Program-made: the position numbers and the translations under genes
NCBI GenBank assembly: GCA_035531755.1
Contig: DATKSK010000072.1
Span: forward strand, 1-35,515
Origin: Acidimicrobiales bacterium
Lineage (GTDB): Bacteria > Actinomycetota > Acidimicrobiia > Acidimicrobiales > UBA8190
Length of the DNA stretch: 35,515 bases
Reading direction: 5' to 3'
In this document: positions 16,560 to 18,214 of the stretch, piece by piece
Layout: each line of letters opens with the position of its first letter
How positions within the stretch are numbered: position 1 is the stretch's first letter
Notes under the pieces: model-generated
The model's database searches: none
Told to the model about the DNA's origin: nothing
Seen by the model: the letters and a program-made list of their open reading frames with translations, nothing else

Positions 16560-17228
16560 TCAGACCGCGGCGACGAACATCTGCTGGCAGATGGCCGGCC
16601 CCAGAGCCACGGTCGTACCCCCGACGTCGAGGGTGAGGGTGCCGTCGGGCGCCCGATCGCGCACGCGCGCCGAACGCCCCGGTATGAGGCCGTGCTCGTC
16701 GAGGAATTCCAGCGAGGCCATGTCCAGCTCGACCTCCTCGGTGATCCGCTCGACCATGACCGTCTCGCCGGGCTCGACGTCCGCCAGGCTCACCTGGGCG
16801 CCGGCCTTCGCAGCGGGGCGACGGGCACCGGGGATGGGATTGCCGTGCGGGCACGTGCTCGGGTTGCCCAGCAGCTCGACCAAGCGGTCCTCGACCTCGT
16901 CGGAGATGACGTGCTCCCAGCGGCCCGCCTCCAGGTGGGCCTTGTGCCACGGCAGCCCGATGACGTCGACGAGCAGGCGCTCGGCCAGGCGGTGCTTGCG
17001 GATGACACTGTCGGCGAGCACCCGGCCCTGGGTCGTCAGCGCGATGGTCCGTCCCGACCGGTGGACGTAGCCGTCGGCGACGAGCCGGTCGAGCATCTCC
17101 GAGACCGACGGCGCCGACCGCCCGAGGCGCTCGGCGATGCGAGCCTGGATGACGGGCGTGCCCTCCTCGGTGAGGGACTGGATGGTCTCGAGGTACTCCT
17201 CGACCGGTGGGTGGAAGCCGTCGGTCAC
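16560..17228 (-). CDS. DtxR/IdeR-family metal-dependent repressor
   Basis: A 222-residue regulator with a winged-helix DNA-binding part (HTH about 27-50), a dimerisation/metal domain and a C-terminal SH3/FeoA-like domain (about 146-222). Compared with DtxR as I remember it, ancillary-site ligands H79, E83 and H98 are present, and E105 and H106 of the other site are present. The DtxR Met10 and Cys102 positions are Glu (E11) and Gly (G102), so the metal preference may differ from that of iron sensors. The GTG at 17228 is chosen because TAGGCT lies 7 bases before it and the known N-terminal helix starts there; an in-frame GTG at 17267 is possible. It is divergent from a ZIP transporter with an iron box. 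Confidence 0.93.
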   Translation of the reverse strand: MTDGFHPPVEEYLETIQSLTEEGTPVIQARIAERLGRSAPSVSEMLDRLVADGYVHRSGRTIALTTQGRVLADSVIRKHRLAERLLVDVIGLPWHKAHLEAGRWEHVISDEVEDRLVELLGNPSTCPHGNPIPGARRPAAKAGAQVSLADVEPGETVMVERITEEVELDMASLEFLDEHGLIPGRSARVRDRAPDGTLTLDVGGTTVALGPAICQQMFVAAV

Positions 17229-17235
17229 GTGCCGG

Positions 17236-17241
17236 AGCCTA
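17236..17241 (-). promoter_or_regulatory. -10-like element TAGGCT, 7 bases before a GTG
   Basis: On the minus strand TAGGCT ends 7 bases before the regulator GTG at 17228. It supports this start and a leaderless transcript. Confidence 0.45.
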
Positions 17242-17295
17242 TCGGCGGTTCCCGGCGTCCCCGACACGGCTTCGGCGGCGAGACCGCCCTCGGTG

Positions 17296-17329
17296 TTGTC
17301 ACATTTCTTAGGTTAGCCTAACCTAAGAA
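17296..17329 (+). promoter_or_regulatory. ZIP promoter overlapped by a perfect DtxR/IdeR iron box
   Basis: A 25-base palindrome at 17305-17329 has 12-base arms that match exactly around a central C. Its core TTAGGTTAGCCTAACCTAA (17308-17326) matches the known DtxR/IdeR consensus at every position. TTGTCA (17296-17301) and TAACCT (17319-17324), 17 bases apart, make a good promoter for the ZIP gene, and the palindrome covers its spacer and -10. A metal-loaded DtxR-type repressor bound here would block polymerase. Confidence 0.9.
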
Positions 17330-17371
17330 TCTCGGGCCCCTGCGGCCCCGACCAGCCGGAGCCCTACGTCG

Positions 17372-18214
17372 ATGTCCCCACTCAACACGATCCTCCTCGG
17401 TGCCGTGGCCGGGGTGACGATCGTCTGTGGCATGCCCATCGGCCGGATGCGAGAGCCCCGGCTCGGGCTTCGATCCTTCCTCAACGCCCTCGCCGTCGGC
17501 GTGCTCGTGTTCATCCTCTACGACGTCCTCCAGCACAGCCTGGAGCCGATCTCCACTGCCATCTCGCCGTCGAGCGGGTCCCACCACCGAGACCTGGCGA
17601 AGGCCGCCGGCCTGGCCGCCCTGCTCGCCGCCGGCCTGACCGTGGGGATGCTCGGCCTGGTGGGCTTCGACCGCTGGCTGGCGAGGCGCGGCACGGTGGA
17701 CGGTCCCGGCGCCGCCACCGCCGACCGGATCGCCTCAGGCAGGGTCTCACGTCCGCGTTCGCACCAGCTCGCCCTCTTCATCGCCACCGGCATCGGCCTG
17801 CACAACTTCGCCGAGGGCTTGGCCATCGGCCAGTCGGCGGCCAGGGGCGCCATCGGCTTCGCCGTCGTGCTGGTGGTCGGCTTCGCGTTGCACAATGCCA
17901 CCGAGGGCTTCGGCATCGTGGCTCCCATGGCCGGCGAGACCGAGCGGCCCTCATGGGGTTTCCTCATGGTGGCCGCGCTGATCGGCGGGGGACCCACCGT
18001 CGTCGGCACCGCCATCGGTCGGAGCTTCGCCAACACGGCCCTGTCGGTGGCGTTCCTGGCCCTGGCGGCAGGGTCGATCCTGTACGTGGTCGTGCAGCTC
18101 GTCAGCTTGGCGGCTCGCCGCCCCGGGCACCGCGAGATGCTCCTGATCGGTATCCTGGTGGGCCTGCTGCTGGGTGTGATCACCGACCTCATCGTCACCG
18201 CGGGGGGCGCGTGA
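17372..18214 (+). CDS. ZIP-family divalent metal transporter
   Basis: A 280-residue importer of zinc, iron or manganese in the cytoplasmic membrane, with about eight helices. The two conserved intramembrane metal motifs are HNFAEGL (H144-L150) and HNATEG (H174-G179), which lie on helices IV and V and form the binuclear metal centre in this family. A His-containing loop (SHHRD, 70-74) lies between helices II and III. The start at ATG 17372 is preceded only by a distant GGAG. A consensus iron box covers the promoter, so it should be repressed when metal is plentiful, by the divergent DtxR-family gene. This fits import of iron or manganese better than export. Confidence 0.93.
   Translation: MSPLNTILLGAVAGVTIVCGMPIGRMREPRLGLRSFLNALAVGVLVFILYDVLQHSLEPISTAISPSSGSHHRDLAKAAGLAALLAAGLTVGMLGLVGFDRWLARRGTVDGPGAATADRIASGRVSRPRSHQLALFIATGIGLHNFAEGLAIGQSAARGAIGFAVVLVVGFALHNATEGFGIVAPMAGETERPSWGFLMVAALIGGGPTVVGTAIGRSFANTALSVAFLALAAGSILYVVVQLVSLAARRPGHREMLLIGILVGLLLGVITDLIVTAGGA

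Follow-up and report, generated by a model that had tools for sequence, protein, structure and literature searches.

The window, the whole 35,515-nucleotide stretch of DNA that was analysed, comes from a soil or water actinobacterium of the Acidimicrobiales and carries two divergent genes with a consensus iron box between them. The gene on the minus strand (16560-17228) encodes P0001, a DtxR-family regulator of 222 aa that consists of a wHTH domain, a metal/dimerisation domain and an FeoA/SH3 domain. The gene on the plus strand (17372-18214) encodes a ZIP-family metal transporter of 280 aa with the motifs HNFAEGLAIG and HNATEGFGIV. The 19-bp operator TTAGGTTAGCCTAACCTAA, at 17308-17326 and assigned to no strand, matches the DtxR/IdeR operator TWAGGTWAGSCTWACCTWA without mismatch, is identical to the consensus TTAGGTTAGSCTAACCTAA as set out in PMC8464063, and ends 46 bp before the ZIP start codon at 17372. 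An earlier sequence-only reading had placed a DtxR-type regulator opposite a consensus operator on a ZIP gene, and the operator, the assignment of the transporter to PF02535 (38.1 bits, cut-off 35.1) and the divergent layout all agree with it.

The same reading had called the site a textbook DtxR/IdeR operator, and the exact match, with none in dinucleotide shuffles of the window (expectation 0.00 even at 3 mismatches), bears this out. The genome scan that it proposed as a check for further copies found none, and the site is the only one with three or fewer mismatches in the 3.28-Mb, 96%-complete genome, in which a reversed control pattern likewise had no match at that threshold. The operator contains an exact 14-bp dyad, TTAGGN4CCTAA (17308-17321, no strand), which is the sole exact copy in the genome and would be the half site of one dimer, and a second, overlapping dyad with one mismatch, shifted by 5 bp (17313-17326, no strand), which would be the site of the second dimer. 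TTAGGN4CCTAA is the half-site consensus proposed from the structures of Saccharopolyspora erythraea IdeR, and the exact and overlapping 14-mers match the two-dimer arrangement published for that protein (PMC8464063). When the 14-bp dyad was sought with one mismatch as a sign of a larger regulon in this genome, only two sites were found besides the operator and its overlap, against six for the control, and thus nothing beyond chance. The operator is apparently the regulator's sole strong one in its own genome, which supports the small circuit proposed earlier.

P0001 scores 56, 105.6 and 48.2 bits against the DtxR/MntR superfamily domains PF01325, PF02742 and FeoA, whose cut-offs are 26, 27 and 23, and it is the genome's sole PF02742 protein. 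A canonical IdeR elsewhere in the genome that owns the operator, which the sequence-only reading had named as grounds for abandoning its case, was looked for and not found, as PF02742 gave no other match in the 96%-complete genome. The regulator falls below the cut-off of the IdeR/DtxR equivalog NF053665 (190.6 against 290 bits) and of the MntR model NF003025 (37.6 against 138 bits). In an AF2 model with a mean pLDDT of 94, the best match is Fe/Co-bound S. erythraea IdeR (SeIdeR, 7b1v; Z 26.6, 44% identity), followed by Mycobacterium tuberculosis IdeR and DtxR, with manganese regulators lower. The regulator is best explained as the Acidimicrobiia counterpart of IdeR, probably reading the IdeR box.

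The residues that would hold the metal are less conventional. P0001 numbering is one higher than that of IdeR in the N-terminal wHTH and coincides with it between the wing and about residue 135, so that Met10 of DtxR/IdeR corresponds to Glu11 of P0001 (codon at 17196-17198, minus strand, as are all codons given here, counted from the start at 17228) and Cys102 to Gly102 (codon at 16923-16925). The phmmer alignment with IdeR (1fx7) has no gaps near position 10 or 102, and it reproduces what had been read from the sequence: Glu for Met10, Gly for Cys102, and H79, E83, H98, E105 and H106 kept. In a three-way alignment of the regulator, IdeR and Bacillus subtilis MntR, position 13 (that of MntR Glu11) is also Glu. 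Among the ligands of the SH3/FeoA domain, in IdeR numbering, E172 is kept and Q175 is replaced by Glu. The base-contact residues S37 and P39 are kept, T40 is Ser, and Q43 is Glu, as it is in 120 of 127 relatives; IdeR Q43A binds DNA normally (PMC8464063), so this last replacement should be tolerated.

The ligand list of the sequence-only reading was correct in the residues that it named and incomplete in that it missed an invariant Cys126-Pro127-His128 motif (codons at 16845-16853, counted from the same start). Cys126 and His128 are present in all 127 relatives, at positions where IdeR has Ser and Phe, and a bridging alignment through a common query places the CPHG motif on ScaR, SloR and MtsR, with Cys126 and His128 at their Cys123 and His125. 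His76, Glu80, Cys123 and His125 form the manganese-sensing site 1 of MtsR and SloR (PMC9253540), and the regulator has the corresponding H79, E83, C126 and H128. Other published sets are not reproduced: SloR site 2 (Asp7/Glu99/Glu102/His103) reads Glu, Gly, Glu, His in the regulator; the MntR set (Asp8/Glu11/Glu99/Glu102/His103) reads Glu, Glu, Gly, Glu, His; and the primary-site sulfur ligands of IdeR and DtxR, Met10 and Cys102, are Glu and Gly. Because Cys126 and His128 stand at streptococcal manganese-sensor positions and restore all four site-1 ligands, the ligands alone cannot name the metal, and the metal sites are best read as a DtxR/MtsR hybrid, a predicted apparatus that fits neither the earlier ligand list nor the standard two-residue rule.

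The substitutions at positions 10 and 102 are clade-wide and not particular to P0001. Among 127 distinct Acidimicrobiia relatives the two positions are mostly Glu and Gly (102 sequences), with Glu and Cys in 15 and Gln and Asp in three, and Met10 occurs in none. Of the five Gln10 sequences, three have Asp102, as though an acidic ligand had to remain at one of the two positions, and the number of lineages behind this pattern is small. Several neighbouring sequences depart further. Two regulator paralogues of one genome (L058 and L060 of G056) have lost primary-site ligands, with H106 replaced by Gly in one and E105/H106 by Ser/Ser in the other, which suggests metal-independent or one-site forms. 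A second DtxR-family class, 35-42% identical and present in many of the same genomes (L062-L065, L067-L075), keeps CPHGF, has Asp for His98 (Ser in L064) and is variable at residue 102. Regulators of the Acidimicrobiia type also turn up in records titled Bifidobacterium breve (L246) and Acidobacteriota (L210), bins that are probably mislabelled or mixed.

The genes that carry the operator in relatives bear more directly on the metal. The full 19-mer is often missing in close relatives, where TTAGGN4CCTAA recurs upstream of regulators and of FTR1. Across 31 genomes, the window genome and relatives from its order, there are 54 exact copies of this dyad, and 24 of them stand no more than 250 bp upstream of genes for FTR1 (13), the regulator (10), ZIP (5) or Nramp (2), six being shared by two divergent genes. 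About 0.02 would be expected upstream of these genes under a uniform null, which is a simple one, although no reasonable correction of it alters the conclusion on placement. The excess in totals is modest (54 against 30 for the reversed pattern), and so it is the position of the dyads that carries the evidence. Further copies precede genes for two siderophore-interacting proteins, an imelysin of the EfeO type, and FbpA-like and Peripla_BP_2 binding proteins, as well as a Lys/Orn monooxygenase, a formyltransferase and cupredoxins, and a ferritin gene follows one copy at a distance of about 280 bp. These targets, with their putative siderophore biosynthesis and uptake genes, have the look of an iron regulon. 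In several of the genomes, among them G018, G050, G036, G014 and G004, a protein of the E10/G102 type is the only DtxR-family match; in others, such as G046, the iron regulon could belong to a second protein of the DtxR class. Counting against the preferred explanation, no operator can be recognised at the regulator gene of many clade members.

The relatives thus support the classical DNA specificity predicted earlier, as their regulators carry the 19-mer or its 14-bp half before themselves and before metal importers, and the association of operator and genes is strong. The changed metal preference predicted with it, for example for manganese, finds no support as a property of this protein, since the substitutions are order-wide and the relatives' targets are iron genes, and a manganese-only preference drawn from residues 10 and 102 is rejected because those targets are mostly iron genes. 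Two further groups of genes lie behind the same sequence. The usual Nramp motif is DPGN, and an Nramp subgroup with GPGLVVMLADTDVGS in its place has the iron-box dyad or the full operator just upstream in G008, G007 and G055 (L079:194-1492, L282:684-1991 and L078:1525-2853). In G019 a ribBA-type riboflavin gene (L267:2036-3283) directly follows an exact dyad, possibly reflecting an iron-controlled flavin supply.

On the transporter side, a scan for consensus sigma-70 promoters found none. By eye, a possible ZIP promoter on the plus strand (17296-17324) consists of TTGTCA (17296-17301) and, after 17 nucleotides, TAACCT (17319-17324), which places the -10 element inside the operator, and it is plausible that the operator covers the ZIP promoter. 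Homologues of the ZIP gene are present in the window genome and in a few of 60 order relatives, and all six order members examined have a dyad matching at 9 or 10 of 10 positions upstream of it. Across the phylum, 11 of 32 homologues have a dyad of at least 9/10, against 0 of 32 for the reversed control, and those of five genomes (G041; G044, with two dyads; G122; G245; G399) keep it without an adjoining regulator. G026 and G054 have the ZIP gene and the regulator on one strand, the former immediately upstream of the latter. ZIP homologues of distant families (L296, L297) likewise stand back to back with a DtxR-family regulator gene, and one of them has the variant dyad TAAGGN4CCTTA.

In several relatives the place opposite the regulator is taken by a different importer. 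FTR1, which is absent from the window genome, is found there in six genomes, with the operator between the two genes intact in G036, with one mismatch in G014, and in further forms in G004, G024, G059 and G008. The simplest reading is that the ZIP protein has taken the place of FTR1 as the importer paired with the regulator. Further candidates for metal control in the window genome are three Fur-family genes (L284, L286 and L285, on contigs C42, C22 and C44 of G000), which adjoin genes for an ABC-3 permease, a NicO nickel transporter and a rubrerythrin, respectively, and whose products are presumably Zur, Nur and PerR. Zinc, nickel and peroxide thus appear to be served by these three proteins, and elimination points to the DtxR-type protein as the obvious regulator of iron, though the third of the Fur proteins could still be an iron sensor.

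Taken together, these observations make it probable that the regulator senses iron, controls its own gene and represses a ZIP importer of ferrous iron. With enough cytoplasmic Fe2+ the regulator would load metal and dimerise, and two dimers would bind opposite faces of the 19-bp operator, blocking both the ZIP promoter and the regulator's own divergent promoter. As iron falls, metal would leave, the repressor would release the DNA, and synthesis of the ZIP protein, which probably imports ferrous iron, would begin. The metal would presumably occupy a DtxR-like primary site formed by E10 (possibly with E13), the backbone of residue 102, E105 and H106, with H79, E83 and H98 joined by Cys126 and His128 in a site resembling site 1 of MtsR and SloR. 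The case for iron rests on the uniqueness of the operator together with that of the DtxR-family protein, the relatives' regulators divergent from FTR1 with the operator between, the dyads before iron genes (some in genomes without another DtxR match), the dyads of ZIP homologues across the phylum, the absence of FTR1 and of an obvious iron Fur, and the closeness of the model to SeIdeR. Against it stands the absence of both primary-site sulfur ligands, which are held to favour Fe2+ (PMC10317159), and the presence of the His/Glu/Cys/His set that serves manganese in MtsR and SloR. Most likely, then, the pair controls iron uptake despite its partly manganese-sensor-like ligands.

It is possible, though we consider it unlikely, that the regulator is a dual Fe/Mn or mainly Mn sensor, acting through E10/E13 and Cys126/His128, and that the ZIP protein imports Mn2+. 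All four MtsR/SloR site-1 ligands are invariant, DR2539 and Treponema denticola TroR answer to both metals, in B. subtilis the M10D/C102E form of DtxR is reported to respond to manganese (PMC2628430), the operator targets include Nramp genes, and the genome has no other Mn-type DtxR. Even so, the relatives' identifiable operator targets are mostly iron genes, the operator is the IdeR box, and iron sensors are closest by sequence and by model. The candidate co-repressor is accordingly Fe, or Fe and Mn: the targets favour iron sensing and the ligands would allow both.

That the ZIP protein is a zinc importer, with the operator serving mainly for regulator autoregulation and its effect on ZIP incidental, is improbable. 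Zinc gave the whole ZIP family its name, and among NCBIfam models that of the zinc transporter ZupT (NF003243) comes nearest, albeit far below its cut-off (52.1 against 252 bits); yet in other parts of the phylum homologues retain the dyad with no regulator beside them, and the Fur-family gene next to the ABC-3 permease probably covers zinc. Least credible, and very improbable, is a non-functional primary site in a regulator that acts constitutively or through another signal. Gly102 brings no side chain, and the two G056 paralogues have lost primary-site ligands, but E105, H106, H79, E83, H98, C126 and H128 are essentially invariant in the 127 sequences, and Asp102 accompanies Gln10 in three of five sequences, as though an acidic ligand were required.

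The iron reading would have consequences beyond this locus, as the Met10/Cys102 pair would then not be required for iron sensing, although residues 10 and 102 are the usual guide to metal selectivity in the DtxR family. With the IdeR box, the relatives' iron genes and partly Mn-type ligands in one lineage, that rule becomes directly testable. We give roughly even chances to a broader statement: that throughout the Acidimicrobiales a DtxR-family sensor governs the IdeR operator and an iron regulon, a sensor that has no sulfur ligand at 10, usually none at 102, and the streptococcal Mn-sensor His/Glu/Cys/His site, and that in this genome the system is reduced to one operator, with ZIP instead of FTR1 as the iron importer. 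The 14-bp half-site that was proposed for S. erythraea IdeR also gains genome-scale support from the data, which make this ZIP subfamily a recurrent iron-box gene in Actinomycetota and hence a candidate ferrous-iron importer. No relevant paper on a DtxR protein of Acidimicrobiia, or on a ZIP gene of Actinobacteria under IdeR, came up in the literature searched, although such work may still exist.

Among known systems, the regulator is closest to IdeR of M. tuberculosis and S. erythraea and DtxR of Corynebacterium diphtheriae, with which it shares the three-domain fold at 44% identity, the 19-bp and 14-bp operator, the ancillary ligands H79/E83/H98/E172 and predicted iron-uptake targets; it differs in Met10 to Glu, Cys102 to Gly, Q175 to Glu, Ser126 to Cys, Phe128 to His and Gln43 to Glu, and in having just one operator, with ZIP as its target, where those proteins have a large regulon. 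The streptococcal manganese regulators MtsR, SloR and ScaR have the same site 1 and an FeoA domain, but they are only about 30% identical in the model alignment, recognise another DNA target and control manganese ABC importers, and SloR has Glu99 where the regulator has Gly102. B. subtilis MntR shares a carboxylate at 10 (Asp8), Glu at 13 (Glu11) and the equivalents of E105 and H106, but, unlike the regulator, it has no FeoA domain, carries Glu99 at position 102 and uses a different operator. ZupT has two HNxxEG motifs; the ZIP protein shares these and the PF02535 family with transporters of the ZupT/BbZIP type, and is set apart by motifs without prolines (HNFAEG and HNATEG) and by its place under an iron box. 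FTR1/EfeU, finally, belongs to a transporter family unrelated to ZIP, yet under putative IdeR-type control in the relatives it occupies the same place, divergent from the regulator with the operator between, that the ZIP gene holds here.
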